Virus record (IMG/VR): IMGVR_UViG_3300025890_002524
Coordinates: 1 to 33,418 of that record
DNA from: a virus
Strand: one strand, 5' to 3'
DNA: 33,418 nucleotides
This document shows positions 3,481-21,846 of the stretch, one piece after another (positions within the stretch are counted from its first letter, which is position 1; each line of letters starts with the position of its first letter). A program made the position numbers and the translations under genes. Under the pieces are notes generated by a model, which saw only the letters and a list, made by a program, of their open reading frames with translations, was not told the DNA's origin and searched no databases.

Positions 3481-3489
3481 GTTAATCTC

Positions 3490-4227
3490 CTACAAATATG
3501 ATATTATGCTTCTCAAATGAGGATTCATAATATTATCTACTTTTAATAACTCTTTTAATTGATACATACTCAACCATATAAAGTTATCTGGTATTTTTGA
3601 AACATCATTCGTTTCTACAAGCATATTTTTTACTCTCTTTTTGTAAAACCTTCCACCATCTTCTGGATACCAATGTTCGAACTTAACTATACCTTTTTGT
3701 TCATTACCATCAAAGTATTCTGAGAATAAAGGTTTTCTACCACTATGAAGTTTATTTAAATTATCATAAGTTACCTGAAGAGTAGGAGACAATAAAACCT
3801 CACCATAATTGCCTGGTTCAAACTTAGCCTCTATGAGATAAAGTGGAGTTCCTTTTGTATCTAATTGTCTAACCAACCCAACAACACTAGCTTCAGTTCC
3901 TTGGTCTACCATTGGTTGATTCCAACCTTTACCGGACTCTCTAATATTGGTTTTAGTCTTAACACCTATAACTTTGAAAAATCCACCAGTTTTGTGTTCA
4001 AAGTTTCCGGTTTTATCATTGATACCCCAACCATCATTTACATCATTCAAATTAATCTCTGTAACTTCTGCTGGTAAATTGTCTTTTATATTCTGCAACC
4101 AATTTAAAACATCACTAATACTTCCATCTGAATTTATACATTCTAAAAAATGGTCTAGTCTTTGTTCCACATTATCATCTATTTCTTCTATCAGATTTAA
4201 TATCTGACTCTTTAATTCAATCGACAT
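3490..4227 (-). CDS. NDP-hexose 2,3-dehydratase family protein (single-repeat form)
   Basis: This 245-residue protein resembles the NDP-4-keto-6-deoxyglucose 2,3-dehydratases of antibiotic pathways (TylCVI, StrV, Gra-Orf27 type). It has GNFEHKTGGFFKVIGV, GWNQPMVDQGT, VGLVRQ, AKFEPGN and LLSPTLQVT in the family's order, then a tail ending in W-L-x-M-Y-Q-L-K-E-L-L like the family C-terminus. Known members are about 450-480 residues with two tandem copies of this unit; here there is only one, so the enzyme may work as a homodimer or have another activity. The family eliminates water across C2-C3 to begin 2-deoxysugar formation. SD AAGGAG precedes ATG 4227, and the gene overlaps the SDR upstream by 11 bases. 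Confidence 0.83.
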   Translation of the reverse strand: MSIELKSQILNLIEEIDDNVEQRLDHFLECINSDGSISDVLNWLQNIKDNLPAEVTEINLNDVNDGWGINDKTGNFEHKTGGFFKVIGVKTKTNIRESGKGWNQPMVDQGTEASVVGLVRQLDTKGTPLYLIEAKFEPGNYGEVLLSPTLQVTYDNLNKLHSGRKPLFSEYFDGNEQKGIVKFEHWYPEDGGRFYKKRVKNMLVETNDVSKIPDNFIWLSMYQLKELLKVDNIMNPHLRSIISYL

Positions 4228-4930
4228 ACTTCTCCTTATATATTTTTATATTATCTTCGGATGTTTTATTTGTGTTGATATCAGTTTTTACATATTCCAC
4301 CTCATAATGTATATCACCAAAATCTATTTTTTTACCAAATATATTTACAACCTCTTCGATAGTTATATCACCATTAGATCTTAAAACCTTTGTACCATTC
4401 TGATTAGCATTAACCGCGTCTAAAATATCTTCGTATAAAATATAATTCATAATCGTATTCTTTGTTACAGCCACATCATCTCCACTTATTATTTTTTGAA
4501 ATGTATTCTTTTTCATTTCCTTTCCTAATAATCCAGATGGTCTTAATATTAAATATTCATCACAAAGCTCTTTTACAATTATTTCTGATAATCTTTTGGT
4601 TACTCCATAGGGTGAATCTTTCGCCTCATCAATAGATGATATATAGACAAATTTTTTATGTGGAATACTTATTAAATCTCTTGTTAAAAAAACATTATCT
4701 TTAAATAAATCTAACCCAACATTACTCCAATTAGAATGCTGAACAGAACCAGCACAATGTATTATCAAATCATATGATTTGTATGCATATCCAGAACCAT
4801 CTGGCGCCCAATTCTTTTCTTTTGGAAAATCTTTCACATTACTTCCTCTAACAAATTCGTCACACTCTGAAAATTGTTTTGAAAGCCATTTTCCTAATCC
4901 ACTATTTACACCCGTAATTAAAACTTTCAT
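4217..4930 (-). CDS. SDR-family NAD(P)-dependent reductase/epimerase, likely 4-ketoreductase
   Basis: A 237-residue Rossmann protein with GVNSGLG (GxxxGxG, residues 7-13), an HCAGSVQ stretch (58-64), VYISSI (95-100) and catalytic Y108-x3-K112 in YGVTK. ILRPSGLLGKEM after this resembles nucleotide-sugar epimerases and dTDP-4-dehydrorhamnose reductases, but the protein is short (these are usually about 290-330), with a reduced substrate domain. Lying immediately upstream of the 2,3-dehydratase and the RmlC-type epimerase, the simplest role is reduction of a 4-keto-deoxysugar nucleotide; an epimerase is the alternative. The start overlaps the previous stop (ATGA), with AGAGGA as SD. The family is clear, the exact step is inferred. 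Confidence 0.82.
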   Translation of the reverse strand: MKVLITGVNSGLGKWLSKQFSECDEFVRGSNVKDFPKEKNWAPDGSGYAYKSYDLIIHCAGSVQHSNWSNVGLDLFKDNVFLTRDLISIPHKKFVYISSIDEAKDSPYGVTKRLSEIIVKELCDEYLILRPSGLLGKEMKKNTFQKIISGDDVAVTKNTIMNYILYEDILDAVNANQNGTKVLRSNGDITIEEVVNIFGKKIDFGDIHYEVEYVKTDINTNKTSEDNIKIYKEKYVD

Positions 4931-5169: not shown

Positions 5170-5813
5170 ACTATTCCTCCATAATATCCACCAATCTTAA
5201 AGGGTATCTTCATATTAATTGATGTATGTTCACTTGGTTTATATCTTGATTTGGGTATAACTCTAAAATCAAAACTTACTCTTGTTATAGATGTTTTATT
5301 TATTTTATTCCCATGTGTTAAAAAACTACCACGCCATTCAGTGCATTCTCCGTAATCAGATTCAAATGGTGTATAATCCCCCTTATCTTCTTCTGTTTCA
5401 GCCCATAATGTATTTGTTCCATACGATTCAGTTAGAGGAACAAAGTAATTTAATTCTCTGACTTCTTTAGCCCATTTTTCATTTCTGTAATGTTTATCCT
5501 TATGAAATTCTCCAACAGCTATGTTATTAGGTAAATGTATTCTTATATCTGGAAGTTCTTGATAAATTATCTCTTCTCCAAACCTTGGCTTTATAACATC
5601 TTCTAAAAATTTTAAATATAAATCTTTGATAGAAGAATCCTCTCTCCATCTTTTGTAATAAATTTGATTCCAATGCATATACATATCTTCTTCTCTTGTC
5701 AAAACAGGATATTTTTTTTCGTTATGCAAAGTTGTTAAATCATCAGTATTTAACCACCTACAAAATAAAGATTTAAAATCATATTTTTTTATATCATAAT
5801 TGAATTTAAACAT
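5166..5813 (-). CDS. StrG-like 2-oxoglutarate/Fe(II)-dependent oxygenase
   Basis: A 215-residue protein with the facial triad of 2OG-Fe(II) oxygenases: H104-x-D106 in GEFHKDKHY, distal H167 in FLTHGNK, and R178 in TRVSFDFR as the likely 2-oxoglutarate-binding Arg. The surrounding pattern (ELNYFVPLTE, NTLWAE, W-R-G-S-F-L-T-H-G-N) resembles the StrG protein of streptomycin clusters and related phage and bacterial proteins. Such enzymes hydroxylate or oxidise small molecules or sugars in the cytosol. The start ATG 5813 has AAGGAG and overlaps the radical SAM gene by 8 bases, so the pair may act in sequence on the same glycan precursor. Substrate unknown. The metal-site reading is strong; the StrG relation is from memory. 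Confidence 0.75.
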   Translation of the reverse strand: MFKFNYDIKKYDFKSLFCRWLNTDDLTTLHNEKKYPVLTREEDMYMHWNQIYYKRWREDSSIKDLYLKFLEDVIKPRFGEEIIYQELPDIRIHLPNNIAVGEFHKDKHYRNEKWAKEVRELNYFVPLTESYGTNTLWAETEEDKGDYTPFESDYGECTEWRGSFLTHGNKINKTSITRVSFDFRVIPKSRYKPSEHTSINMKIPFKIGGYYGGIV

Positions 5814-7344
5814 AATTTTCTCCTTGCAAATCGTGTATTTCGCCTGTATTTTTATCGGTTATTTGCATCTTTTGTCTATTTTTTATGTGGTGTGCTAAAT
5901 TACAATCTTCCCAAGCCTTCTGTCTTAACTCTTCAAGTTTTTGAGGTGGTATTGATGTATTTATCATATTTGCCTTAGTCCATTGCATTTTATCAATATC
6001 GTAGTCTTTCGGAAGTTGTCCATTATTCATAACCTGATCGAACATTGGTGTTCCTGGCAATGGCATAACCAAAAAGAAGTTTGAAGCATCCAATCCATAA
6101 GTCATATTTTTTTTAGCAAAATCTACAGTTTGCTTTATTTCTTTCTCTGTTTCATCTGGAAAACCTACCATATAATTTGCTGCTACTCTCATACCTACTC
6201 TTTTTATTTCTTTTACTAAATTCTTAACATCAAAATCTTCAACTTTCCATTTATTAGAACACCATTTTTTTACTATTCTATGATTAGCTGATTCAAACGG
6301 TAGTACAATATCCCTAAACCCAGCCTCAGCTAATAATTCAATCACTTCTATATCTGGTTTACCTTTTTTAGTAAGATGAATTACATTAACGCCATTTACA
6401 TCTAATATTTCTAAACCTAACCCTATAATCTTTTTTAACATTTTTATGGCTCTTCTCTTCATACCAAATATCGAATCATCCTCAACAAATACTTGTTTAG
6501 CTCCTATAACATCTCTCAAATATATTAACTCATCCAAAACTCTCTCATCTGATTTTATTCGGAATCTACCTATCTCTCCACTCAATGAACCCTTAGTCTC
6601 ATCTGCTATATGACAATACGAACAAGCAAAGGGACACCCTAAAGAGGTCATCATGGATACATATCTTAATTCCTCATCATCTTCAAAGTGACCACCATGT
6701 GGTCTACCAATTTCCCAATATCTTTCATTGGGTAATAAATCCCAAGCTGGCATCGGTAGCTCATCTAAATTCATAATCACTCTCCCTAAATGAGAAGTGT
6801 TAATGGTTTTTTCATTTTTTCTGAATAATATTTTTGGAACTGAACTCCAATCTCTGCTACCACTTCTATAAACTTTCATGATTTCTTGAATAGTAAGTTC
6901 TGACTCTGAAGTACATACCATGTCAAAACCAGCATCTAAAAATACATCATATCTAGCTCTAGCATTTACACCACCAGAGAATAATATCTTTTCAGGAAAA
7001 TGTTTTTTTATTAAACGACAACAATGTAGAACCATAGTTTCTTGTAAAGAAAAAATTGATGTAATCCCAATAAAGTCAAAGTCTTTTGCCACATTCAAAA
7101 TTCTTTCATCTGTAACTCCAGTTCTTAACAATCCAGTTTCTAGTTTTGTAGGATTGAAAAAGAATTTGTTAAAATCATCATCGTCATTACCGACACAAGC
7201 ATCGTAAACCTCTACATCAACACCTATATCTCTCAAAGCTCCGCCCAACATTGGATATGCTAGTGAACCATTGGGTTTGCATAAAGTATCAGACCAATTT
7301 TGTTCCGGTGGGTATAAAAGTAAAACTCTTGGTTCGTTCAACAC
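5806..7344 (-). CDS. B12-binding-domain radical SAM enzyme
   Basis: This 512-residue protein has an N-terminal cobalamin-binding-type Rossmann domain (~5-165; VLLLYPPEQ, FDFIGITS, ILFSGGVNAR) followed by a radical SAM barrel. The [4Fe-4S] motif is C237-x3-C241-x2-C244 (LGCPFACSYC), and later VEDDSIF, LPFESAN, NYMVGFPDET and LPGTPMFD match class B methylthiotransferase or BchE-like members. The B12 DxHxxG motif is not evident, as in many of this subgroup, so cobalamin may bind base-off without His or not at all. The start is GTG 7344 just after the previous stop (TTG 7341 is possible), with GGGGAA upstream. Likely a C-methylation, ring contraction or hydroxyl removal on a sugar or lipid intermediate; exact reaction unknown. 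Confidence 0.88.
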   Translation of the reverse strand: MLNEPRVLLLYPPEQNWSDTLCKPNGSLAYPMLGGALRDIGVDVEVYDACVGNDDDDFNKFFFNPTKLETGLLRTGVTDERILNVAKDFDFIGITSIFSLQETMVLHCCRLIKKHFPEKILFSGGVNARARYDVFLDAGFDMVCTSESELTIQEIMKVYRSGSRDWSSVPKILFRKNEKTINTSHLGRVIMNLDELPMPAWDLLPNERYWEIGRPHGGHFEDDEELRYVSMMTSLGCPFACSYCHIADETKGSLSGEIGRFRIKSDERVLDELIYLRDVIGAKQVFVEDDSIFGMKRRAIKMLKKIIGLGLEILDVNGVNVIHLTKKGKPDIEVIELLAEAGFRDIVLPFESANHRIVKKWCSNKWKVEDFDVKNLVKEIKRVGMRVAANYMVGFPDETEKEIKQTVDFAKKNMTYGLDASNFFLVMPLPGTPMFDQVMNNGQLPKDYDIDKMQWTKANMINTSIPPQKLEELRQKAWEDCNLAHHIKNRQKMQITDKNTGEIHDLQGENYV

Positions 7345-8152: not shown

Positions 8153-8944
8153 TTAAAATCTTCCACCCTCTGGCGCATTGCCTCTAGGATATTGTTTTAG
8201 TTTTTCTAAGTTATCGATTCCAGGATAAGTATCACCCATATATTCACAATCTTTATAAATTGCTCTGACTAAATCATGGTCTATACTTTCCTTTAAACTT
8301 TCAATCATAATTATAGGCAATCCTAATTTATGTGCGTGGTGATAAGACTCATCGTGGTGGTCAAAAAATCCATACTCTTCCCAATTATCATACAAAGTAG
8401 AATATTTATTCATTCCTTGAGAGTCTGAAAAGTAAAAATATTCCAAACATCTAGGTCGATGCGTCATAAAATTTGCATTCCACGGAAAGTAGATACTGCC
8501 ATCTCTAGGATAATGTTCTAACACCAAATCTGACATAAATGCTTCATCAAACCTCGATGATATTACCCAATCATATTCAAAATTATTTTCTTTTTCAAAT
8601 TCTGATTTTAATTGTATAACTTGTTTAAATCCATACCACCTACTAACTTTGTGGTTGAACCTTGTACACCACTTATCTTTTGTAGATTGTTTTTTCATTT
8701 CAGGTTTAAAATCAATTTGCTCTGAATATTTTGATTTTTTTGGTTTATATATCTCATCAAGTCTATCTTCATAATCAGTAGACCAACTGAATATAAATAC
8801 ATCAACATTATCATTAACATCAAATAAATGTTTTTTATAATGTTCATATCCTATCCTATAATCAATATCTCGTTCCCATGTATAAGACCTTTTATTAGTA
8901 TATAAAAACCCAACAGGTCCAGATAAGCACAATGCTGTTCTCAT
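8153..8944 (-). CDS. Putative glycosyltransferase-like protein
   Basis: A 263-residue protein beginning MRTALCLSGPVGFLY, with NVDVFIFSWSTD near 47-58 and YDWVISSRFDEAF at about 124-136. The opening strand CLSGP, the (D/N)VF-x-x-(S/T)W strand and the SSRFD stretch occur in a poorly characterised group of capsule or O-antigen-associated proteins that look like GT-A enzymes. It is rich in Trp, Tyr and His, with no membrane segments. Strong SD AGGAG; overlap of 4 bases with the GT61 gene upstream and 1-base spacing to the next glycosyltransferase suggest joint expression. A modifying enzyme other than a glycosyltransferase cannot be excluded. Confidence 0.5.
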   Translation of the reverse strand: MRTALCLSGPVGFLYTNKRSYTWERDIDYRIGYEHYKKHLFDVNDNVDVFIFSWSTDYEDRLDEIYKPKKSKYSEQIDFKPEMKKQSTKDKWCTRFNHKVSRWYGFKQVIQLKSEFEKENNFEYDWVISSRFDEAFMSDLVLEHYPRDGSIYFPWNANFMTHRPRCLEYFYFSDSQGMNKYSTLYDNWEEYGFFDHHDESYHHAHKLGLPIIMIESLKESIDHDLVRAIYKDCEYMGDTYPGIDNLEKLKQYPRGNAPEGGRF

Positions 8945-10011
8945 AAAATTTCTCCTAACTTATATTTTAATTTATTAATATCCACATCCCAAGGAGAGTT
9001 CATCCCACCTGAGATTGATAAAGCATTTTCATCGCTTGATTCCTCTACACGACCTACAAATTTGGTATCTTCAAACATATGTAAATTTGTATGATTCAAT
9101 GCATATTCTAAACGTTTATTTATAACAAAAAAATCTGGACTATTAATAGATATCACATTTGTTTCTGGCATACAAAAAATAGCATTTGACATTCCACCAC
9201 CACTTGTTCCAGCCACGTATTTAGCACCCTTAAACATTCCAATTTTATCTTTCATAGAAAGATTTTCACAAAATATCTCTTTGAAGCCATATTGTTTAAA
9301 TAATTCTACAACCTCATCTTCATTAACACACATTCTTTTTTGTGTATAATCAGTTCCAATATTTTCTGTTTTTTCTATTGTCCATGTTCTTCTTGAAATA
9401 TATATCCTTTCTTCATTATATACAGAACCCTTCATTGAACCTAATATTGAAATAATAGCACTGTGTGGTGGTTCTAAGGACATTCTGTTATGAGTCAAAG
9501 ACGAACCAATTATTAGCTTTTTGTATTTAGTATTCTTATTCAAAAAGACTAAATTATTTTTAGTAATACCCAACAAACTTAAAGTTTCGTATACAAATGG
9601 ATATAAATCTTCATTACCCTTTGGAGTACTCACCAACAATTTTAAATCATCAATTTCTTTTTTCAACTCAAAATACGAATAAAGATAAGGAACTGTATCA
9701 TAAATCCAATGAAAATAATTAGCACAATTATAAACAAAATAAAACAATGGTGTTTCTTCTACATTTTCAACATTAGTATTATTACAATTCCAATCCATAG
9801 TTTCTTCATATATCGTACCTCTGCCAAGTGACATAAATCTTTCTATCGTAGGAAGAAGAAGTTCATTATCTGATTTAATTAATGGTTGAGGATAATGTTC
9901 ACTAATACCTTCAATTATACAATCGTTAAAATAACCTACTTTTATACCTCTCTCATTTGATATAGTGCTAATCTCAGCTTTATCTGATTCATCCCAATAT
10001 TTAATTTTCAT
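8941..10011 (-). CDS. GT61-family (DUF563) glycosyltransferase
   Basis: This 356-residue protein shows the signature layout of family 61: NYFHWIYDTVPYLY near 118-131, the phosphate-binding-like IYISRR near 202-207, the EDEVVELFKQYGF helix, LSMKDKIGMF, and AGTSGGGMSNAIF near 270-282 close to the nucleotide-sugar site. Family 61 enzymes transfer pentoses or hexosamines; bacterial members act in capsule and O-antigen assembly. No signal peptide or membrane segment, as expected for a phage-made cytosolic enzyme. The start has a strong GAGGAG SD and overlaps the nucleotidyltransferase upstream by 11 bases. Confidence 0.82.
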   Translation of the reverse strand: MKIKYWDESDKAEISTISNERGIKVGYFNDCIIEGISEHYPQPLIKSDNELLLPTIERFMSLGRGTIYEETMDWNCNNTNVENVEETPLFYFVYNCANYFHWIYDTVPYLYSYFELKKEIDDLKLLVSTPKGNEDLYPFVYETLSLLGITKNNLVFLNKNTKYKKLIIGSSLTHNRMSLEPPHSAIISILGSMKGSVYNEERIYISRRTWTIEKTENIGTDYTQKRMCVNEDEVVELFKQYGFKEIFCENLSMKDKIGMFKGAKYVAGTSGGGMSNAIFCMPETNVISINSPDFFVINKRLEYALNHTNLHMFEDTKFVGRVEESSDENALSISGGMNSPWDVDINKLKYKLGEIL

Positions 10012-10720
10012 ATTTCTTTAGCTCCTCTGGTGTTCCCCAACAATGATATTTTTCAACATCAAATATTTTTATATCTAATTCTGATAATGTATTAAATATA
10101 TTATCAATATAAAATTCACCATTACTTTTAATATTACCATCATATATTCTTCTCACACCATCTAAAAAATACTTAGCTTTTTTAAAATAAAAAGTTCCAA
10201 CAATGGCATGATTATTATATGAATCATCAAACACCTTTTGTTTAACATAAGTTTTTACTAGTATTTCATTATAAACATCCAACCAACTATATGAATTTGG
10301 ATTACTAGCAAAGGATTTATTATTTATCGTAGTCCAAACTATAATATCGGAGTTTAAACTATTATACTTATCCTCATCCCATTCTAAACCATAATCACAA
10401 GAACTAATTAATAGTGGTTCGTCTAAATTTATTTTAGCACCAATAATACCAATTTCAGCAGTACAAGCTTGACCTTCCGTAACCCCATCGATAAGAACAA
10501 TTTTTGAATTTGGATACCTATTATACAATATATCATCTATATTGTATTTTTCCACATGCTTTTTAAGACACACAAAAACATAATTATCACAATCCGGTAA
10601 ACATTTTACAGCTTCACAAATCATATAATCACTATTAACTCTAATTAATGGTTTTGGAACTTCGTAACCGCCCCTCATAAACCTATCACCTCTGCCAGCT
10701 AATGTTATTAAATTTACCAT
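10001..10720 (-). CDS. Sugar-phosphate nucleotidyltransferase-like protein
   Basis: A 239-residue GT-A/NTP-transferase-like protein opening MVNLITLAGRGDRFMRGGYEVPKPLIRV, a G-x-G-x-R variant of the NTP-binding loop followed by the K-P substrate motif. ISSCDYG near 105-111 holds the metal-binding Asp, and it ends with CWGTPEELKKYE like many hexose-1-P nucleotidyltransferases. It is a paralogue of the protein at 11449-12285, sharing the opening and the terminal GTPEE motif, and the two flank a phosphatase and a GDPD-like gene. It likely activates a sugar or polyol phosphate as a CDP or other NDP derivative. It has a weak SD and overlaps the upstream stop. Confidence 0.82.
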   Translation of the reverse strand: MVNLITLAGRGDRFMRGGYEVPKPLIRVNSDYMICEAVKCLPDCDNYVFVCLKKHVEKYNIDDILYNRYPNSKIVLIDGVTEGQACTAEIGIIGAKINLDEPLLISSCDYGLEWDEDKYNSLNSDIIVWTTINNKSFASNPNSYSWLDVYNEILVKTYVKQKVFDDSYNNHAIVGTFYFKKAKYFLDGVRRIYDGNIKSNGEFYIDNIFNTLSELDIKIFDVEKYHCWGTPEELKKYEN

Positions 10721-11151
10721 ACACCTACATAATCAGAACAAATTCCGTAGACATCTGTTCCTTTCCAATTTTTCAATTCTTTTTTATTCAACAAAGGTAT
10801 TATACATTTATCATCAACTTTAGTTAAATTATGAGCCCATATATGTCCATCACTTATTATTGTATAATCTTCATTCTGATGATAAAAAATCCTCATCTCT
10901 GTATTTATTAATTCACTTAGCGATGTAAAATCTTTACAATGTACCCATAACTTATCTTTTCTGTCCAATAACCATTGTAAATCTACATCATATTGTCCAT
11001 AATCATGCCCAAATAAAAAATTATCTTTTTCATATCTAATATCAACTTCAACATTATATCCTAAATCAATAGCTTGTTGGATGTACGATTTTGTATTTTC
11101 TTTTTCAATAGCTACTCCATCTACATTACCTCTATGTGATATTAAAATCAT
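10714..11151 (-). CDS. Short GDPD-like phosphodiesterase domain protein
   Basis: A 145-residue protein with the core motifs of glycerophosphodiester phosphodiesterases: H6-R7-G8, E18-N19-T20, E35-V-D37 and G-H49-D50 in the usual order, followed by WVHCK. Family TIM barrels are usually about 240 residues; this one appears shortened, with the last barrel strands (IWAHN, VYGICSDYVG) compressed, so activity is uncertain. GDPD enzymes cleave glycerophosphodiesters to glycerol-3-phosphate. Sandwiched between a HAD phosphatase and a nucleotidyltransferase, it may help release or edit a polyol-phosphate decoration. ATGA overlap with the upstream gene. Similar short members are, from memory, found in bacterial capsule loci. 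Confidence 0.75.
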   Translation of the reverse strand: MILISHRGNVDGVAIEKENTKSYIQQAIDLGYNVEVDIRYEKDNFLFGHDYGQYDVDLQWLLDRKDKLWVHCKDFTSLSELINTEMRIFYHQNEDYTIISDGHIWAHNLTKVDDKCIIPLLNKKELKNWKGTDVYGICSDYVGVW

Positions 11152-11477
11152 AATTCTTCTATTCTTTTTGTTTTATCGCATATTAACAAATCATAATTTG
11201 GTTTATCACCAACACTTAGTTTGTGATATTTACAGCCCCATTTATTTAATTGGCTTTCAGTCAAAGAATAATAATTTAAATTTGTGATAGAACCCCTAGC
11301 AGTCCAATATACAATTGTATTACCCTCATCATAAAGTTTATTAATTTTATCTATATTATTTTGGTTAGGAATAGCTTCCTCATAAACTCTTTCGTTTTCA
11401 TAAAAACATATAGTCTCATCGATATCAACGTATATTTTAAAATTATCATTATTTAATTTGTGTGATATTCTTTTCAT
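11148..11477 (-). CDS. HAD-superfamily phosphatase (capsule-type, small)
   Basis: A 109-residue minimal HAD hydrolase: motif I is D18-x-D20-x-T22 (YVDIDETIC), motif II is the Thr in YWTARG, and the Lys/acidic end motifs are in GDKPNYDLLICDK. There is no cap domain, as in KdsC-like and capsular phosphatases acting on sugar phosphates. It overlaps the nucleotidyltransferase upstream by 29 bases and the GDPD-like gene downstream by 4. In such loci it dephosphorylates a sugar or polyol phosphate before or after nucleotidyl transfer. SD GGAAAGG is close to ATG 11477. Confidence 0.85.
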   Translation of the reverse strand: MKRISHKLNNDNFKIYVDIDETICFYENERVYEEAIPNQNNIDKINKLYDEGNTIVYWTARGSITNLNYYSLTESQLNKWGCKYHKLSVGDKPNYDLLICDKTKRIEEL

Positions 11478-12285
11478 AACCTTTCCAATAATTATAAGAT
11501 TTTAATAAATCTTTTTCCGATTTAACTTGTGTTCCTGAAATTATAGTATTCCAAGCTTCATAATTTTTAACTTCTTCTGGTGTTCCAAATACTGTAACAT
11601 AATCAGTATCGAATACTCTTACATCTAACCCATCGTTTACTAACAGATTATAAACTAAAGTAACATAATATTCACCATTAGTATGCTTTACTTCATTTTT
11701 TACAGCATTTTGAAAATATTTTTTAACATAAGAACCTTTACTAAAATAATATGTTCCTGTTGATGCATGTTCTTCCCAATGATTATCAGTATATGGTTCT
11801 TTTTCTTTTATCTCTATTAAAGAATCACCCTCTGTTTTACAATAAGCCATATATGTCGAACTAAGTCTGTGTGGGTGGAATCCAGAATGAGTTAATATAC
11901 AACCATCTACATTATTTTTATTAACATAATTTTTAAATTCTCTATAATTCCACAAATAAGGATTATCACAATAACAAACAATTACTTCCTCATCATCGTG
12001 TATACTATCTAAGTGTGGTATAACAGTGAATACAGGTCCTTTTGTATGTTGTGGTACTGACAATATTGTACACCCTCTTTTTATTCCCTGTAAATAAGAT
12101 TCTGTATCATCTGTTCTTAAATGTCTTTCATTGCAGATAAAAATCATCTCATCGTCTTCACCAAACATATTAACAATTCTATCGATTATCTTTTGTCCAG
12201 CAACCTCTATAAATGGTTTTGGAACATTATACCCAGCATCCACAAACCTCTGACCTAAGCCAGCCATTGGTATTATCACCTTCAT
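11449..12285 (-). CDS. Sugar nucleotidyltransferase
   Basis: This 278-residue protein has the NTP-transferase opening MKVIIPMAGLGQRF, followed by the YNVPKPFIEV substrate/Lys motif, CYCDNPYLW near 108-116 with the metal Asp, a THTGxF-like THSGFHPHR stretch, ASTGTYYF, and a closing FGTPEEVKNYEAW. It lacks the LbH repeat domain of GlmU-like enzymes. It is paralogous to 10001-10720 but keeps the better G-x-G-x-R loop, so it is the likelier active enzyme of the two. It probably makes an NDP-sugar for this cluster. SD AAGGAG; coupled to the kinase/aldolase gene by an ATGA overlap. Confidence 0.88.
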   Translation of the reverse strand: MKVIIPMAGLGQRFVDAGYNVPKPFIEVAGQKIIDRIVNMFGEDDEMIFICNERHLRTDDTESYLQGIKRGCTILSVPQHTKGPVFTVIPHLDSIHDDEEVIVCYCDNPYLWNYREFKNYVNKNNVDGCILTHSGFHPHRLSSTYMAYCKTEGDSLIEIKEKEPYTDNHWEEHASTGTYYFSKGSYVKKYFQNAVKNEVKHTNGEYYVTLVYNLLVNDGLDVRVFDTDYVTVFGTPEEVKNYEAWNTIISGTQVKSEKDLLKSYNYWKGYEKNITQIK

Positions 12286-13649
12286 ACTAAACTCCTTCTA
12301 TATTTTTCAGCTTCCATATTTCTAATTTTACTAACCTCATCAGAAGTTAAATACTTAGGTGTTAAACCCACCTCTTTTTGTATATGTAAAATATAATCAT
12401 TTATAGGTTTGTTCTCTTCAACCAATGCCACAGCGTCTGGAAATATAAATTTATCCGAATCAAAATTATTGAATAAATTAGAATAAACAGTAAATGTTTT
12501 TGAATTTTGTATTAACCACTCTTTACATAATTTATTAATCTTCAAACTCATATCTAAGACTTCTTTAAATGTATCTCCACAGCAAATTAAACCATGATTC
12601 TCTAACAACACCACTTTATTATCTGATTTTGTAAATATAGACGCTAGTTCTTTTCCTGGAGAAGCATAAGGTATATAATCAAATTTATCTAAAACATCAT
12701 TTAAGATTTCTTGAGAATCTTGAGAACATAAAATAGTATTAAGATATATTGGATGAGTATGCAAAACAACTGATTCATCGAGTTTTAAATGAAAGCCTAT
12801 TTCCATAGACGGCCTTTTCTGTTGTTCATTTATAGGTATACCATTCAAATCACAAACAGAATATCCGTTTAATATTGATATGTCTGACATAGTATGTCCT
12901 GATGATGTTATTATTATCTTATCATCAAATTTAAATGACAAATTACCACCGGCACCTTGAATCAACTCGTACTCAAAAGATAAACTTCTACAAGTCATTA
13001 AAAAACTTTTATGTAAATCATAAAATTGTTTTACTTTTTTGAATAAATGTTCATTAAATTCATTCACAACTTTGTAATTTAAATCAACAGTTCCATACTT
13101 CTTTTTACTAAAATTTACTATAATATCAGCGTTTTTCATTTGGGGTTGAATGTATTTCTTATCATCTAACTCTCTGTCTTTTATAGTTTTAAGAACTTGA
13201 GCTTCTGTATATCCCCTACTCTGTATGTCTCTACTAAGTTTCCAATCTTTTGTCAACTCATCATCTGTATTGACAAAAATATTTAAGTCTGCTAACTCAC
13301 AAATTTCTTTATCATACAGCGCATGTAAACCTTCGTTAACAATTATATCATGCGAATCTATTACACAATTCTTCGTAAATTTACCTGTGTTGTGATTATA
13401 AACATCTCTTTTTATATGCTTTCCATTGATAAGGTCTATAATTTGTTTTCTACCTACATTTATATTATTCGCGGTTGGATTTAAGTGTGTAAACTTTTTC
13501 CAATTATCATCATGCCTTTCCCATTTATGTAAATCATCCCCACATAAATGTAAAACTTTTTTATCTAACTCAGATAAAACTAAAACTAATATTTTAGCAA
13601 TAGTTGTTTTTCCTACACCAGAACTACCAGAGATATTTATTATTTTCAT
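12282..13649 (-). CDS. Uridine-kinase-like domain fused to a class II aldolase/adducin domain
   Basis: This 455-residue fusion begins with a P-loop kinase of the uridine kinase/phosphoribulokinase superfamily (~1-190): Walker A GSSGVGKTT at 8-16, GDDLHKW, NEGLHALY, and SRDIQSRGYT with IQPQMKNADI near the end. Residues ~200-440 are a class II aldolase/adducin domain: QGAGGNLSF, PSMEIGFH with the catalytic-type Glu, the Zn ligands of HTHP, and LENHGLI with the third His. Known relatives include L-fuculose- and L-rhamnulose-phosphate aldolases and MtnB. A kinase that phosphorylates a keto or polyol sugar and an aldolase or dehydratase that uses it would form a two-step enzyme. ATGA overlap with the carbamoyltransferase. 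The domains are clear, the substrate is unknown. Confidence 0.83.
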   Translation of the reverse strand: MKIINISGSSGVGKTTIAKILVLVLSELDKKVLHLCGDDLHKWERHDDNWKKFTHLNPTANNINVGRKQIIDLINGKHIKRDVYNHNTGKFTKNCVIDSHDIIVNEGLHALYDKEICELADLNIFVNTDDELTKDWKLSRDIQSRGYTEAQVLKTIKDRELDDKKYIQPQMKNADIIVNFSKKKYGTVDLNYKVVNEFNEHLFKKVKQFYDLHKSFLMTCRSLSFEYELIQGAGGNLSFKFDDKIIITSSGHTMSDISILNGYSVCDLNGIPINEQQKRPSMEIGFHLKLDESVVLHTHPIYLNTILCSQDSQEILNDVLDKFDYIPYASPGKELASIFTKSDNKVVLLENHGLICCGDTFKEVLDMSLKINKLCKEWLIQNSKTFTVYSNLFNNFDSDKFIFPDAVALVEENKPINDYILHIQKEVGLTPKYLTSDEVSKIRNMEAEKYRRSLV

Positions 13650-15292
13650 TTTCTCTTTTCCACTAAAATTCCATATTCATAGAAATACAAATAGTCTATA
13701 TTAGTTCCCATAAAACAATTTATAGCATGTTCTGGAGTTTCAACAATTGGTTCTCTGTCATTAAAACTAGTGTTCAAAACAATTGGCACTCCAGTTTTGT
13801 CTTCGAATTTCTTAATAAATTTATAGTACCATTCATTATCATTTTCAGTTACAGTCTGCAATCTAGCCGTACCATTTAAGTGAACCACTGCTGGAACTTT
13901 ATCTTTTGCTTCCTCTTTCCAATCTAATACTGTTGTCATATAAGGACTATCCACATCTTTATAAAACCAATCCTTAACATTTTCTCTTAGTATAGATGGA
14001 GCGAATGGCCTGTACCATTGTCTGTGTTTGACTTTTTCGTTTATTATATCTTTCATATCAGGCCATCTTGGATCACATAATATGCTTCTGTTACCTAACG
14101 CTCTCCTACCTGACTCCGAGCCGCCACCAAATACTGAAATTATGTTTTTTGAAGTCAATAAATCTACTACCATTTCATCTGAAACATTTGTTTCGACATT
14201 TATTTTATCAGAAACTTTATCAATTTCAGAACGTATTTCTTTTTCATCATATGCTCTTCCTAAATATGGTGATGTATTATCTTTCCATTCAATTCTAGGA
14301 TTTCTAAATATTTGATGATAAATAAATTGAGAGCCACCTATAGATAATCCACCGTCATAGGGTACAGGACAAATATAAATTTGTTCTATTTCAGGAAACC
14401 ATTTATACATCTTCCCTACCATTACTGAATTTAAAACAACTCCACCAGACATACATATATATTTAGGTTTACGTTCTTCGATAATAGGAGTCATAATCTC
14501 TTTACAGACAACTTCAGTAGCTCTTTGTAAACCAGCCGCTACATCAAAAGCATCTTGTTCACTTCTTTCAGCAATTGGCTTGTATTTATCTACATTTTTT
14601 TGTGTAGCAGATGAAGGACCACCACCGCCTGCCATAAATGCATTATAAAAGTCTTTCCAGTATTTATCAGAGTCACCTACAGCAGCCATAGCCATAACAC
14701 TCCCAGCTGCTAAACCATGTGGGTGTCCAGATGACAATCCAAATATTTTACCTGTGTAAATTCTCCACGGAGAACCTATAGTTAGAGTTTCCATTGGTAT
14801 TCTTTTAATTGGAGTAATATCTAAACCCTTACCATCCCAAAAAGTAAATGCAGAAGAGAATGTTTCAGTTTCTCCAAATTCACTTTCAATATTCATCCAA
14901 TCATTTTTTTCAGTTCCACTCCCATCAACAGTGATTATCAAAGCTTCGTCATAATTGCTTGAAAAGAAAGCATTAGCCGCGTGAGATTGGTGATGACCGA
15001 CAATAAAATATTTACCATCATTTTTTTCTATCAAAGATTTCATCTTAGTATCGGGTTCTTTTTTAGCTAATATTTCTGGATAAGTTTTTCTAGCTCTCGG
15101 ACAACCATTAACAAAATACTTCGCATCATTAACATCTTCTTCTGGCAACATCTGCAAAGCCATTTCTAAACCATCACCCAACGGTTCTTTTTCTCTTATA
15201 AATCTCTCTAACTCTTCATGTATTATTGGAACACCATTTTCTAAAACACAATAAGAAACATCATGTCCTGATTGAAACCCTATTATTTTCAT
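13646..15292 (-). CDS. NodU/CmcH/TobZ-type carbamoyltransferase
   Basis: This 548-residue protein has the two-domain form of O-carbamoyltransferases. An N-terminal Kae1-like ATPase/transferase fold has GFQSGHDVSYCVLENG (5-20), HHQSHAANAFF with metal-binding His residues, ITVDGSGTE and, later, MSGGVVLNSV. A C-terminal YrdC-like part has GGGSESGRRALGNRSIL, WYRPFAPSIL, LNGTARLQTV and VLNTSFNDREPIVETPEHAI. The family uses carbamoyl phosphate and ATP to make a carbamoyl-adenylate and transfers the carbamoyl group to a sugar hydroxyl (Nod factors, tobramycin, cephamycin). It follows the largest gap in the window, with a fair AAAGG SD. It probably carbamoylates a sugar of the glycan. A role with the Mom-like enzyme is less likely, since Mom makes a different group. 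Confidence 0.94.
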   Translation of the reverse strand: MKIIGFQSGHDVSYCVLENGVPIIHEELERFIREKEPLGDGLEMALQMLPEEDVNDAKYFVNGCPRARKTYPEILAKKEPDTKMKSLIEKNDGKYFIVGHHQSHAANAFFSSNYDEALIITVDGSGTEKNDWMNIESEFGETETFSSAFTFWDGKGLDITPIKRIPMETLTIGSPWRIYTGKIFGLSSGHPHGLAAGSVMAMAAVGDSDKYWKDFYNAFMAGGGGPSSATQKNVDKYKPIAERSEQDAFDVAAGLQRATEVVCKEIMTPIIEERKPKYICMSGGVVLNSVMVGKMYKWFPEIEQIYICPVPYDGGLSIGGSQFIYHQIFRNPRIEWKDNTSPYLGRAYDEKEIRSEIDKVSDKINVETNVSDEMVVDLLTSKNIISVFGGGSESGRRALGNRSILCDPRWPDMKDIINEKVKHRQWYRPFAPSILRENVKDWFYKDVDSPYMTTVLDWKEEAKDKVPAVVHLNGTARLQTVTENDNEWYYKFIKKFEDKTGVPIVLNTSFNDREPIVETPEHAINCFMGTNIDYLYFYEYGILVEKRK

Positions 15293-16298: not shown

Positions 16299-17639
16299 CT
16301 AAAACCCCACCTTCTCACCTATAGCAAGGGGATAGTTATTTTTTATACAGTAATTGTGTAGAACAGATTTATAGTATTTATTTTTTAAATCAGACGTAAG
16401 CCATAAAAACTCTTGAATAACTTTTTTATCTAAGAACGGATATCTAGCCTCAATTCCGTACATGCCAGACACATATTCCTCTTTAGCTATATAGGATTCC
16501 ATACTACTGTAGTAAAAACTGAGCCAAGGAAATATAGATGATAAGTCTTTTGGAAATATCCCACCAAAATTACTGTGTGGAGCAAACTTTTGACCATTAA
16601 ATCCATAGTCAGCATATACTTCATCAGGACCTATACCTGATAGATACACTTTTCTATTATCTTGATTAGCCGCATTACATACCAAGGACATCCACGCAGA
16701 ACCTCTGTCATCCCAAAGTAAAGCTCTTTCTTTATAATCAGTAGAGGAAGATTCTATTGTCCATCTAAATTCCTCTGTGCCTGATTTTATTTGATTTCGA
16801 TGTATTTCACGAATCTCATTTGATTTATATAGATTTTCTAAAGAAGCATTTTCTGAATTGTTAATTAATTTATGTCTTTCATTCAAAATATTTAAATTTT
16901 CTGTATTACCATTGACAGTATAAGCTTTAAACTCCACATTCTGTTCAATTAATTCAGCACATATCACTCCGCTATCATAACCTGAACTTAAACCTATAAA
17001 TATTTTTTGAGTTGTATCAGAAGTTCTTTTAAAAATTGAATCCGTATAAGCTTTGTCCCAATCATCAAAATGATTTTTACTTTGATTCAAATCAAATTCA
17101 CATACTGTAAATTCATCTATCAAAGAACCATCAGAAATTTTGAAAGTCATAGCAGTATTTGGTTTAGCTTTTTTCACATTCTTATGATTAATCTTATCAA
17201 GTGCTGTTCTATATGACGAACATCCAAAATCACCATCTTCATTTGAATAAAATAAAGGTTTTGTTTTGAATGGGTCTGTTACCATAACTATTAAGTCTCT
17301 GTTAAAATCCATTAATAAAATAGCAAACTCTCCATCCAATTTCTTTACAAATTCAATTCCATATTCTTTATATAAGTCTATTAAACAATAACCATCGCTC
17401 TTATAATCACCAAATTGTTTATAATTATAAATTTCTCCATTATATAGACAAACAATACCATCATCATGGAATGGTTGGCTAGTAAACTCTCCGGTCATAC
17501 TTAAAAGATTATGTATAAAAGTAAAGTTATTAACATCATCTTTGACAATACAAGTATCATCAGGACCCCTAAACTTCAAATAATAGTTTATTTCGTCAAC
17601 ATTTTCTATATCTTTATTGGTACATAATATGCTACACAT
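16299..17639 (-). CDS. Asparagine-synthase-like glutamine amidotransferase
   Basis: About 446 residues. The ATG at 17639 is chosen over the one at 17654 because it puts Cys at position 2, the N-terminal nucleophile of class II glutamine amidotransferases, and because GAGGAG lies seven bases before it. The glutaminase domain (1-~165) shows FRGPDD, LYNGEIYN and DGEFAILL. The synthetase domain (~190-446) has the PP-loop GLSSGYDSG in place of SGG(L/V)DS, GIGPDEVYADYG, and EARYPFLDKKV. AsnB enzymes are about 500-630 residues, so this is a compact form, like those that amidate uronic acids in O-antigens or act in antibiotic pathways. It likely makes a sugar amide or an amine donor. It overlaps the preceding gene by 8 bases. 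Confidence 0.88.
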   Translation of the reverse strand: MCSILCTNKDIENVDEINYYLKFRGPDDTCIVKDDVNNFTFIHNLLSMTGEFTSQPFHDDGIVCLYNGEIYNYKQFGDYKSDGYCLIDLYKEYGIEFVKKLDGEFAILLMDFNRDLIVMVTDPFKTKPLFYSNEDGDFGCSSYRTALDKINHKNVKKAKPNTAMTFKISDGSLIDEFTVCEFDLNQSKNHFDDWDKAYTDSIFKRTSDTTQKIFIGLSSGYDSGVICAELIEQNVEFKAYTVNGNTENLNILNERHKLINNSENASLENLYKSNEIREIHRNQIKSGTEEFRWTIESSSTDYKERALLWDDRGSAWMSLVCNAANQDNRKVYLSGIGPDEVYADYGFNGQKFAPHSNFGGIFPKDLSSIFPWLSFYYSSMESYIAKEEYVSGMYGIEARYPFLDKKVIQEFLWLTSDLKNKYYKSVLHNYCIKNNYPLAIGEKVGF

Positions 17640-18408
17640 TATATAACTCCTCATAAGTTCTCTTCATCCAATAACTAGCATCTCTTCTCATTGGATTACC
17701 TGGTATGGCATTAAAATGATAAACCCAACCGGCTTCTGAAAAATAAAGTTTATCATCCATCCAATGTTGAAGTTCATTATCTAGTAAAAGTACATTCTTT
17801 CTCCACAAATCTTGTAGATTGTAACATGGTGGTAAGATTTTTAAATCTATTTTATGTTTATTTAACATAAAATTCAATATGGTTTGGTCTGTACCAGCTT
17901 GAATTTCGGTGATAGCTATTTTTATATCTATATGATTTTCTTCATAATATTTTTTCATTTCGTTAAAAAATGGTTTGTGATTTTTATTAATAATTTGAAA
18001 CCCACCATTGATATATCTATGAAGATTGATTCTATTTCCACCAAACAACCTGTTACCAAAATTTTCAATGCTTCTCAAAACCCATTCATAATCCCCATCA
18101 TTCATTACTCCACAGTACTTACCATCTGTTTCATTGAAGAAATTAGGACAATCAGGATGCACGATAGTATCAGCATCAATCATTAGAACTTGGTCATAAT
18201 CTATTTTATTACCATCCAAAAAGTCAAATAGATGGTATCTTTGCCAAGTTATCTTCATATATTCTACAGGATAAAGTAAATCTTCCCATACTAATAATTC
18301 ACAATTATTCTTATCACAAAAATGTTTCCAACTCTTAACAGAATATTCGTAAGATTTGTTTCTATTATCATCTAAATTAATATTTGGCATAAAAACTATA
18401 TTTTTCAT
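17632..18408 (-). CDS. GT-A fold glycosyltransferase (GT8-like)
   Basis: A 258-residue protein from ATG 18408 (SD in GGGGGGT; the stop of the upstream gene overlaps as ATGA; an ATG six codons earlier is less likely). It shows a N-terminal donor-binding strand NIVFMPNINLD, ITWQRYHLFDFL, and the DxD motif in VLMIDADTIVHPDCPNFF, then NGGFQIINKNHKPFFNEM and a GTDQTILNFML stretch typical of GT8-like and related galactosyl/glucosyltransferases. The end holds WVYHFNAIPGNPMRRD with a late His, as in metal-dependent retaining GT-A enzymes. Cytosolic, no membrane segment. The family is moderately supported and the donor is unknown. Confidence 0.78.
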   Translation of the reverse strand: MKNIVFMPNINLDDNRNKSYEYSVKSWKHFCDKNNCELLVWEDLLYPVEYMKITWQRYHLFDFLDGNKIDYDQVLMIDADTIVHPDCPNFFNETDGKYCGVMNDGDYEWVLRSIENFGNRLFGGNRINLHRYINGGFQIINKNHKPFFNEMKKYYEENHIDIKIAITEIQAGTDQTILNFMLNKHKIDLKILPPCYNLQDLWRKNVLLLDNELQHWMDDKLYFSEAGWVYHFNAIPGNPMRRDASYWMKRTYEELYNV

Positions 18409-20078
18409 ATAAATTTTACCCCCCATTGTTCTTCTGTTAATTTATTAAACGGATACCCTTTATGACTTTTCATTTCAAAAAACTTTCTTATACCATCCCA
18501 ATCTGATTTATCTCTATCAGTATGTTTGTTCTTTCTACTAAAATAAAATCTTGGTTCTAAAAAGTTGTAACCACCAATGTTAAAACTATAATTTTCAATT
18601 AAATCATCATCGCCTTGAGCATCAAATATTCTAAACTTACCACGATTAGGTTCAAATATCTCAACCCCATTACTTCTAATAAAATTAGTATCACCGCCGA
18701 ATATCTGATTCCTAGCTTCAGTAGATATTATAATATCTATATCATCATTCTGTCTAATACCCATTAGGGCTAATATACCAGACTGACATATTGTAAACTC
18801 ACCAGTTGGTATTGATATATCACTTGTACCCTTTACATTATGTATTAATGGTTTTACTCTTTGTAAATTATCACTTTTTCTAACTTCATCATATATCTGA
18901 CTCCTTTTCATGTAAAATGGAATATACTTCTTACCTTTTATTAATCTACCAATCATAGCACAAGCTCTATGATAACTATGTTTTATAAAACCATTATCAA
19001 ATTCTACTGGATTTTCTTTAAGAAAAGCTTCTAACTCATTATCATTCATTAATTCTAAATTAGAATAATATTCTTCTGTCATCTTATCCCACCCTAATTT
19101 ATGGTGGTCTCCAACATCTTTTCTAAATTCAGCTAGTATACAATTAAAATATTGCCAGTTATCAGGAATCAATTTATCTTTAACTGTCTGTACATTACCC
19201 GGTATAGAATAAAACATATAAACATCTCTAACAGTTTTCAAACTTTGATTTTGTGTAATAATTTCTTTACCACCAGTTCCCCCAGCGAACTCCATATTTA
19301 AAAAATATTCTAAACTAATTGGTTCATATTTCATATTAACTTTCTTACTTCTGTCTTTTCTCCATTGTTTCATAAGTTGAAACCATTTGTTATCATCAAT
19401 ATCTATGGACATATATTTAAATTTTAAATCTGTTTTCCAAACTGAGTAAGGAAAACTTAATTGGTCTCTTCTGCTATTGTATCTGTATTCCACCCACCAT
19501 TTTTCCATAGCCTCTATTACATCAGCCTCATTATGTCTTCTAAAAATTACTGTGGTTCTAGCTAAACCATTATTCTTAGGATAACCATCTGCCAAGTACT
19601 TTTTTGTCTGATTGAAAATTATGTTCATATCATCTTTATATTTTTTTCTAGGATGATTATCACCTAACCACTTTATAAAATCAGCTTCTTGGTATATACA
19701 ACTTCTCCTATTCAAATTACCAGTCTTTGTCATACCACATATTGAATGGTCTAATACTGAAAGGTTTTGTTCAGACAAATGCTCATTCACTACATCATCT
19801 ATATTATTAGTAATTAGTACATCTGCATCCACACACACACTAATATCGTATTCTTTAAAATGTCTATGAGGTAATATCTTATATAACCTATTATCTCTAG
19901 CACCATCCACATAATATCTTGTCACTAATCTAACTTCCCAAACATCAGATTTAATATTTGGATTGTCTGTAAAACAAACTAAATCCCAACCATCTAACCT
20001 ACATTTAGGTGTATGAAGAAAGAAATCAGAATTGTCAGCATAACCAAACATTGATGTATAAATAACTTTATTGTTCAT
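18405..20078 (-). CDS. Glycosyltransferase (TOD1/MUCI70-like) fused to a LicD-like domain
   Basis: This 557-residue protein starts with a DUF616/TOD1-MUCI70-like GT-A unit (~1-240): KVIYTSMFGYADN, WDLVCFTDNP, VDGARDNRLYKILPH, DxD in VCVDADVLITNN, and RRDQLSFPY. A middle segment (~360-400) has NGFIKHSYHRACAMIGRLI, a pattern I recognise from phage/plasmid proteins but cannot name. The last ~130 residues read QSGILALMGIRQNDDIDIII then KHTDRDKSDWDGIRKF, which follows the G-x-L-(x)-G-x-R...DDIDI pattern of LicD-like nucleotidyltransferase folds that attach phosphocholine. So it may both transfer a sugar and decorate it with a phosphoester. SD AGGAG. The domain limits and the LicD relation are by eye. 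Confidence 0.65.
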   Translation of the reverse strand: MNNKVIYTSMFGYADNSDFFLHTPKCRLDGWDLVCFTDNPNIKSDVWEVRLVTRYYVDGARDNRLYKILPHRHFKEYDISVCVDADVLITNNIDDVVNEHLSEQNLSVLDHSICGMTKTGNLNRRSCIYQEADFIKWLGDNHPRKKYKDDMNIIFNQTKKYLADGYPKNNGLARTTVIFRRHNEADVIEAMEKWWVEYRYNSRRDQLSFPYSVWKTDLKFKYMSIDIDDNKWFQLMKQWRKDRSKKVNMKYEPISLEYFLNMEFAGGTGGKEIITQNQSLKTVRDVYMFYSIPGNVQTVKDKLIPDNWQYFNCILAEFRKDVGDHHKLGWDKMTEEYYSNLELMNDNELEAFLKENPVEFDNGFIKHSYHRACAMIGRLIKGKKYIPFYMKRSQIYDEVRKSDNLQRVKPLIHNVKGTSDISIPTGEFTICQSGILALMGIRQNDDIDIIISTEARNQIFGGDTNFIRSNGVEIFEPNRGKFRIFDAQGDDDLIENYSFNIGGYNFLEPRFYFSRKNKHTDRDKSDWDGIRKFFEMKSHKGYPFNKLTEEQWGVKFI

Positions 20079-21846
20079 TTATCAAATCTCCTACAATATT
20101 TTCAGCAGTATCTACACAAGTACCTATTTTGCCAGAAAATATAGTAATTAAATTATCTTTATCAAATTTATAAATAGTAGGTCTAGCATCATCATGTTCT
20201 CTGTCTTTTAGAACTGTTCTGATTGTATACATCGAACCTATATGCTCTAATGTATCAAAGTCATCAAAAAAGTTTTTGCCTGATTCAATAAATTTATTTA
20301 TGTTTGTAACTAAGGGATTTTTTATAACTCCACTATTTAAATATTTCTTCAAGGTTTTATTTTTAACGATTGGTTTTTTACCAATATTTGTTTCATGAAT
20401 AGCATGGACTACATTGCCCATAACATGATATCCTGTATCCCCATAAGGATCTATACACATGAAAGGCCCATCCATTACTACAAAAGATTTGTTCTTATAC
20501 TTATCCGACAACCTAACAACCGGCTTTTCACACAACTCAAATTGTAAATCTTCTTTTTCAGTTGAAAGGTGATTTTTTAAAGAATAAGTAGCATTTACAG
20601 TTAAAGTGCTGTCTAAATCCCCAACGCCAAAATCAGTATTCAAATTAACTTTTACAAGGTATTTACCAAGTAAGTCCCAACAGATTTCCTTTAGTTTATT
20701 AGAATCAAATAATGTTTCTTTTACTTCTAAACACAATTGCAGAGCCTCATCATTGGTTAAATCAACATCCACTTCTTTATACTCTAATTGTAAATCATCT
20801 AAAAATTTTATATATGTATCTTTGTCAACTAAACTTTTATCTTTTGCTATACAATAGTAGTTTTCTACTTTATTTAAAATACTTTCACTATAATACTTTA
20901 AAAATCCATCTTGTCCTTCTTTAGATGAAATAGCAGTCTCGTGACTTCTAGGGTAGTGATATCCTCTATGTAGTCTATACTGATTTATGCCAGATGCTGA
21001 GTTAAATATGTCACCAGCCTTTTCATAAAGATTAACAAAGTAACCATTTTTAGATAACATCCACGCACAAGTTACCCCAAATATACCACCACCGACTACA
21101 TTTACACTTTCGAATAATTCTTTTCTAAGTCTATCTATTAATCTAGCACAGAACAATGTCCTATCTTTGTTTTCTAAATAATCATCATTGTTAAAAACAT
21201 ACTTAAACATCTTCATCAGAGCGTCTTTATCATCACCATCGTGCATTAGATTAATACCATTAATTTCGTGCAAATTTTCTTTTGCCAGTCTATCATAACA
21301 AAAATTTACTTTCTTACCGCCTAATTTGATAGAAAAACTTAATGTTCTTTTTGTGTCTATTTTTTTAATATCAGAAAATTCTTCACCCAATATACTGTGT
21401 AGTAAATAGAAATCATGCCAAGCTAAGTTATAAAGATTAGACATAATAAATTTACCATAATCAGACCTACCCTTCTTTAACCAATTAACAGTTATTTTAT
21501 TTTCAGTAGGGTATTCTATTTCTTTTAGTTTGTCTCTGAACATAAAAACATCATTAACGTAAAGTTTAACATTATAAAGTTCTGCTGTGTAATACAAATC
21601 AAAAGAAGTCTGATAATCTAATGTTAAAGACTTTTCACAGAAAACATTTACTCCAGCTTCTAAACAATACTTTACAATATCGTAATGAGTCTGATTAGGT
21701 GTAGCTACAACAACCCAATCAACTTCATTTAGCCTATCTTTATAGCTTTCTTTTGAAGTGCATGTAAACACTACCTCTCCAAAATTTTCTAACTTAGGGA
21801 GTAGTATCTTACCCCAATAACCATAACCTATTAAACCAATTTTCAT
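20068..21846 (-). CDS. Gfo/Idh/MocA dehydrogenase fused to FAD-dependent oxidoreductase
   Basis: 592 residues in two enzymes. Residues ~1-240 are a Gfo/Idh/MocA Rossmann protein: KIGLIGYGYWGK (GxGxxG), WVVVATPNQTHYD, and VFCEKSLTL, where EKP of the family is EKS but the catalytic Lys is kept. The second half opens with a second dinucleotide-binding motif NVVGGGIFGVTCAW, then NQYRLHRGYHYPRS, MDGPFMCIDPYG and HIGSMYTIRTVL, typical of the DAO-type FAD oxidoreductases that occur in polysaccharide loci. Sugar 3-ketoreductases such as KijD10 and SpnN are Gfo/Idh/MocA members, so the first half is a candidate for the step after 2,3-dehydration. The start is ATG 21846 by TGATG overlap; GTG 21849 is also possible. 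The two reactions are inferred. Confidence 0.83.
   Translation of the reverse strand: MKIGLIGYGYWGKILLPKLENFGEVVFTCTSKESYKDRLNEVDWVVVATPNQTHYDIVKYCLEAGVNVFCEKSLTLDYQTSFDLYYTAELYNVKLYVNDVFMFRDKLKEIEYPTENKITVNWLKKGRSDYGKFIMSNLYNLAWHDFYLLHSILGEEFSDIKKIDTKRTLSFSIKLGGKKVNFCYDRLAKENLHEINGINLMHDGDDKDALMKMFKYVFNNDDYLENKDRTLFCARLIDRLRKELFESVNVVGGGIFGVTCAWMLSKNGYFVNLYEKAGDIFNSASGINQYRLHRGYHYPRSHETAISSKEGQDGFLKYYSESILNKVENYYCIAKDKSLVDKDTYIKFLDDLQLEYKEVDVDLTNDEALQLCLEVKETLFDSNKLKEICWDLLGKYLVKVNLNTDFGVGDLDSTLTVNATYSLKNHLSTEKEDLQFELCEKPVVRLSDKYKNKSFVVMDGPFMCIDPYGDTGYHVMGNVVHAIHETNIGKKPIVKNKTLKKYLNSGVIKNPLVTNINKFIESGKNFFDDFDTLEHIGSMYTIRTVLKDREHDDARPTIYKFDKDNLITIFSGKIGTCVDTAENIVGDLINEQ

Follow-up and report, generated by a model that had tools for sequence, protein, structure and literature searches.

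A kinase-aldolase fusion protein of a T4-like phage and its gene cassette, a possible route to activated pentuloses

The viral contig analysed here, which is 33,418 bases long and is called the window as a whole, carries a T4-like clamp-loader gene at one of its ends. It encodes a protein of 455 amino acids that joins a kinase to a class II aldolase, and the question is which pathway such a protein serves. Its ORF is one uninterrupted frame on the minus strand (12282..13649), with the start ATG at 13649 and the stop ending at 12282. A sequence-only reading had described a uridine-kinase-like domain and an aldolase domain, both intact, which could yield a phosphorylated triose or another unusual precursor for nucleotidyltransferases (NTases) following directly. 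The motifs named there were all found, at residues 8-16 (GSSGVGKTT), 232-238 (GAGGNLS), 297-300 (HTHP) and 350-353 (ENHG). An AlphaFold2 model, computed with 37 related fusions as input, showed two domains in one confident fold (pLDDT 92.7, pTM 0.89), and a fold search with this model returned phosphoribulokinase (PRK), uridine kinase, pantothenate kinase and class II aldolases, with no fold that altered the reading. The fused two-domain ORF was present in viral contigs as 69 ORFs comprising 51 distinct sequences, the window included; relatives were 35-71% identical to the window protein and had kept the catalytic residues (Walker A, zinc histidines and base glutamate).

The kinase domain comprises residues 1-183 (13101..13649, minus strand), with Walker A at 8-16 and with D38, H41, R45, Y84, H86, E106, K137, R140, R145 and R159 as further residues of interest. 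The Pfam PRK/uridine kinase family PF00485 matched residues 3-179 with an E-value of 3.7e-41 and 141.5 bits (cut-off 22), and its catalytic residues, the Walker A motif G8xSGxGKT16 and D38, were conserved across the 51 distinct fusions. Within this family the phosphoribulokinase profile NF005655 scored 176 bits, and up to 206 bits in bacterial kinases of the cassette described below, both under its cut-off of 236. The uridine kinase profiles TIGR00235 and NF004018 gave 91 bits against a cut-off of 220 and 87 against 180, respectively. Identity as a uridine kinase was ruled out by these scores (91 against 176 bits), and the earlier label was replaced. Structural comparison likewise placed the kinase part closest to phosphoribulokinases and the second part closest to FucA-type aldolases. 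The Calvin-cycle PRK was the best profile and structural match of the kinase (VIA, Z 23.9, rmsd 1.9 over 200 residues). Residues H41, R45, K137, R140 and R145 are common to PRK and the cassette kinases; unlike PRK, the phage kinase does not have the C-terminal part and is fused to an aldolase. Among 138 cassette kinases, D38, H41, R45, Y84, H86, K137, R140, D141, R145, R159 and Q170 were invariant and are also found in PRK, while G37, W43, W50, T54 and H55 were invariant or nearly so and differed in the three PRKs compared, indicating that the cassette kinases form a separate PRK subfamily. Position 106 was serine or cysteine in many of the bacterial cassette kinases.

The zinc class II aldolase domain spans residues 207-388 (12486..13031, minus strand), with H297, H299 and H352 as zinc ligands, and here the earlier assignment was borne out by a Pfam Aldolase_II match at 219-378 (PF00596, E 1.5e-22, 80.8 bits, gathering cut-off 22.2). 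The three histidines align with H92, H94 and H155 of FucA, E283 aligns with E73, and N236, S250-G251 and S281 align with the FucA phosphate loop; in FucA these residues are the zinc ligands, the catalytic base and the phosphate-binding site, respectively. All of them were 98-100% conserved across the 51 distinct fusions. On alignment no catalytic residue was missing in either domain. The ribulose-1-phosphate aldolase profile NF053831 gave 35.9 bits (cut-off 300). The domain shares the fold of FucA (2opi, Z 19.2, rmsd 2.5 over 172 residues), but differs from FucA and other class II aldolases in its fusion to a kinase and in a C-terminal extension common to the aldolases of bacterial cassettes. 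In the window this extension is the C-terminal tail at residues 404-455 (12285..12440, minus strand), which ends in NMEAEKYRRSL and on alignment matches the tail NWDAE(K/Q)YRxSL of the bacterial proteins.

Downstream of the fusion, four genes on the minus strand complete a block at 10001-13649, which alone among the genes of the window recurs as a block in many viral loci. NTase 1, of the MobA-like/sugar-1-phosphate nucleotidyltransferase fold (11449..12285), overlaps the fusion by 4 nt and is 36-37% identical to the first half of a bacterial dual NTase. It is followed by a small HAD phosphatase (11148..11477; phrog_1238, weakly EcbF-BcbF), by a GDPD/PI-PLC-like phosphodiesterase with a shortened barrel (10714..11151; invariant H6, R7, N9, E35, D37, H49, D50 and K73) and by NTase 2 (10001..10720), which corresponds to the second half of that bacterial dual protein. 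In the GDPD-like protein H6, E35, D37, H49 and K73 were invariant in 24 sequences; its best fold match was the GDPD 1o1z, weak at an E-value of 5e-3, and no Pfam family matched. The phage HAD belongs to another HAD subfamily than that of the bacterial cassettes and is absent from many viral ones. A GT61 glycosyltransferase (8941..10011, minus strand), a candidate acceptor-side enzyme, was found in only 7 viral loci and was therefore placed outside the core.

A kinase profile search yielded 76 viral loci and 147 relatives in prokaryote genomes, of which 80 were kept. In the viral set, counted as 79 entries with the window entered twice (as itself and as L001), the kinase was accompanied by an aldolase in 74, an NTase in 73 and a GDPD-like gene in 72. 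The corresponding genome loci, some of them cut by contig ends, had an aldolase in 75 of 80, an NTase in 72, an HAD in 71 and a GDPD-like gene in 67, together with a GT2 of the dolichyl-P-mannose-synthase kind in 68 and a recognisable GtrA in 42. A further scan, seeded with NTase 1 and with 80 of its 263 relatives kept, recovered the same set. The fusion itself was absent from all 80 cellular loci: there the kinase is the C-terminal part of a membrane protein of about 700 residues that is weakly GT87-like, the aldolase is a separate gene nearby, and NTase 1 and NTase 2 form one dual protein in most bacteria. Phage and bacterial proteins were 35-37% identical in the kinase, 23-29% in the aldolase including its C-terminal tail and 26% in the GDPD-like protein. 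A search with the whole window protein gave one close relative, none was found in prokaryote genome contigs, where domain-wise profiles were needed to detect relatives, and among phage and plasmid records there was no full-length match in phages and one plasmid with both genes nearby. In the phage contig L066 the six functions are separate genes near a terminase-like ORF. Conservation of this gene set in viral and cellular loci agrees with the earlier proposal that both domains are active in one pathway feeding downstream NTases; the HAD and GDPD-like members of the set and the other fusion partner of the bacterial kinase had been missed.

The cassette was found in phages, in many bacterial phyla and in at least one archaeal genome, but its occurrence was sporadic, i.e. 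in 1 of 25 Yersinia genomes, 5 of 398 Pseudomonadota (long kinase form) and 2 of 200 genomes in the family of L099, as expected for a mobile glycan locus. A DNA-level scan of 5,426 E. coli genomes located it on only two plasmids. One of these, NZ_CP145712 (IncR), carries the entire bacterial cassette (L003, 6022-14984) near an IS26-like transposase, and a second E. coli strain also has it. Variants of the gene set were seen as well. In L072 a beta-phosphoglucomutase-like HAD is fused to a nucleotidyltransferase in a 453-aa protein of the same cassette (8401-9762), and in two genomes from the phylum of L135 the dual NTase has about 240 extra C-terminal residues (L258, 7799-10075; L259, 6591-8891). 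A Pseudomonas aeruginosa plasmid has two NTase-like genes, a phosphodiesterase and an HAD with neither kinase nor aldolase (L008, 5998-8831), so the activating core may serve other precursors. The bacterial cassettes resemble Gtr serotype-conversion islands (GtrA, GtrB and a specific glycosyltransferase) in that they usually contain a GT2 and often GtrA, have membrane glycosyltransferase-like proteins and occur sporadically. Classical gtr islands use host UDP-glucose as donor source, whereas the bacterial cassettes are predicted to encode a whole donor pathway. In the open-access literature searched, neither the fusion nor the cassette was found to be described. The analysis ties the orphan phage fusion to a conserved, apparently undescribed set of five or six enzymes.

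A link to ribulose-1,5-bisphosphate (RuBP) was provided by the phosphatase. In all 11 cellular loci tested (ten bacterial and the archaeal L088), the top NCBIfam match of the cassette HAD was RuBP 5-phosphatase (NF053830), with 137-195 bits, and the HAD of phage L066 gave the same top match with 110 bits; all these scores were under the cut-off of 330. Since kinase and HAD scored below their family cut-offs, their specificity may have shifted. In haloarchaea the product of RuBP 5-phosphatase is ribulose-1-phosphate, observed in cyclized form, and a FucA-like zinc enzyme was shown biochemically to split it into DHAP and glycolaldehyde (PMC9700705). A PRK-type kinase, an RuBP-phosphatase-type HAD and a FucA-type aldolase would thus form consecutive steps from ribulose-5-phosphate over RuBP and ribulose-1-phosphate to an aldol step. 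The haloarchaeal non-carboxylating pentose bisphosphate pathway is alike in applying an HAD phosphatase and a FucA-like zinc aldolase to ribulose bisphosphate and ribulose-1-phosphate (PMC9700705); it differs in that its RuBP comes from ribose-1,5-bisphosphate isomerase rather than PRK and in being catabolic, while the cassette is linked to NTases, a GDPD-like enzyme and glycosyltransferases and its proteins score under the family cut-offs.

With NTases and, in bacteria, genes for lipid-carrier transfer alongside, the pentulose phosphate is, we infer, activated and not catabolised. At chances just short of even, the fusion would provide the opening steps of a sugar-donor pathway encoded in the glycan gene cluster of a T4-like phage, and the cassette would supply a nucleotide-activated pentulose of the xylulose or ribulose type for surface glycans. 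The kinase would convert a pentulose-5-phosphate (ribulose- or xylulose-5-phosphate) to the 1,5-bisphosphate, and an HAD, the phage's own or that of the host, would remove the 5-phosphate to leave a pentulose-1-phosphate able to close into a furanose. The aldolase would make, cleave or re-configure the ketose-1-phosphate through DHAP and glycolaldehyde, and the NTases would activate the product for glycosyltransferases. In bacteria a lipid carrier might then take up the sugar for flipping and transfer, as in a Gtr serotype-conversion island making its own donor.

Since the anomeric centre of a ketose lies at C2, a ketose-1-phosphate cannot itself act as a glycosyl donor, and a shift of the phosphate from O1 to the anomeric O2 would explain the presence of two NTases and a GDPD-like enzyme. 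Speculatively, NTase 1 might form an NDP-1-pentulose, the GDPD-like enzyme might move the phosphate to the adjacent anomeric C2 by way of a 1,2-cyclic phosphate opened to the 2-phosphate, and NTase 2 might form an NDP-2-ketose, the true ketofuranosyl donor. A 1,2-cyclic phosphate formed through the neighbouring hydroxyl is the usual course in the GDPD superfamily. That this sequence (phosphorylation of a pentulose-5-phosphate, 5-dephosphorylation, aldolase, coupling at O1, cyclic-phosphate transfer to O2 and re-coupling) might be a general route to nucleotide-activated ketofuranoses is considered unlikely, if conceivable. Glycans of bacteria and phages would obtain xylulose or ribulose residues by such a route. 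Xylulofuranose has been reported in several bacterial polysaccharides (PMC8707391) and in chlorovirus glycans (PMC9614988). Neither a pathway to NDP-xylulose nor an activated xylulose donor was found in the open-access literature searched, and the cassette enzymes are concrete candidates for this missing piece of glycobiology.

The cyanophages S-SM2 and Bellamy and at least 26 viral contigs of the NTase scan have a version of the gene set that lacks the kinase and in which the aldolase stands alone. The LPS clusters of S-SM2 and Bellamy are like the cassette in their dual NTase, GT61, class II aldolase, HAD and GDPD-like genes, the GT61 lying downstream of the dual NTase, but they have no PRK-type kinase. 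Photosystem reaction-centre genes, a mark of cyanophages, were present in 12 of the 28 records without the kinase and in none of the 39 that carry it (Fisher p 5e-6), a count made up of events that are not independent, as the kinase-less cassettes probably represent one cyanophage lineage. A cyanophage would not need the kinase, as the phosphoribulokinase of its cyanobacterial host already produces RuBP. The pattern agrees with RuBP as the missing product and is not independent proof of it; a phage may drop an enzyme where the host supplies its product. Six matches in the cyanobacterial phylum were uninformative as a second test of RuBP, since they had no photosystem genes; the four of them that were read further (L258, L259, L260 and L262) carry the kinase.

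A heptose-like route is possible, though we consider it unlikely. The aldolase would join DHAP to an aldehyde to give a sugar phosphate, the kinase would add an anomeric phosphate, the HAD would take off the other phosphate and the NTases would give an NDP-aldose, with the GDPD-like protein as a side enzyme. This order of steps is that of the GmhA/HddA/GmhB/HddC pathway, two NTases are at hand, and GT2 enzymes of the dolichyl-P-mannose-synthase kind, like GtrA, usually work on aldoses. PRK-type kinases, however, use primary alcohols rather than anomeric hydroxyls as substrates, RuBP 5-phosphatase is the closest match of the bacterial HAD, and the route would account neither for the lack of the kinase in cyanophages nor for the constant presence of a GDPD-like gene.

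The phosphorylated triose of the sequence-only reading, or a small polyol, converted by an NTase to a CDP-glycerol-like donor, appears improbable. DHAP is the expected partner of the aldolase, GDPD-like enzymes act on glycerol phosphodiesters and the NTases follow the fusion directly, but host DHAP is available to a phage with no kinase, phosphatase or aldolase of its own, and a reductase is not constant in the cassette. The transfer genes of bacterial cassettes (GT2 of the dolichyl-P-mannose-synthase kind, often GtrA) point to a lipid-carried sugar instead, and the kinship of the phosphatase points to a pentulose.

Auxiliary carbon metabolism, in which ribulose-5-phosphate would pass through RuBP and ribulose-1-phosphate to DHAP and glycolaldehyde for the energy or nucleotide supply of the phage, is regarded as highly improbable. 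Closely similar reactions occur in the haloarchaeal pathway (PMC9700705), but the fusion or kinase was nearly always found beside NTases and a GDPD-like gene in glycan clusters of phages and bacteria, and the bacterial kinase is fused to a membrane protein.

In the kinase tree the viral fusions formed a single clade (SH-aLRT 98), adjoined mostly by kinases of Bacteroidota and including two unfused kinases, one with the aldolase as a separate ORF (L014) and one for which no aldolase was found (L046). These two might suggest a chance fusion or assembly artefact of domains with no functional link, but this has next to no probability and is already refuted by the recurrence of 51 distinct fused sequences from many samples in one clade and by the linkage of the same two enzymes as separate genes in bacteria. 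As judged from alignment and tree, kinase and aldolase have intact catalytic residues and were fused once, in one viral lineage.

Several other genes of the window were identified around the cassette. A NodU-like carbamoyltransferase lies directly upstream of the fusion (13646-15292) and a glutamine-amidotransferase/asparagine-synthase-like protein farther upstream (16299-17654). A radical SAM protein with a B12-binding-type domain (5806-7344) is encoded within the glycan cluster, and a Gfo/Idh/MocA-type oxidoreductase is fused to a DAO-type FAD oxidoreductase in a protein of 593 aa (20068-21849). The regions 2941-4930 and 21846-23051 contain an NDP-hexose 2,3-dehydratase (3490-4227, Pfam E 3e-50), an RmlC-type epimerase above its NCBIfam cut-off, an RmlD-like reductase and a C-methyltransferase (Methyltransf_14), a predicted set for a 2,6-dideoxy-3-C-methyl sugar in a phage. 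Sugars of this kind are known from antibiotics. A Mom-family protein is encoded at 31473-32114 (Pfam E 2e-43), a family that modifies adenine in phage DNA and counters restriction.
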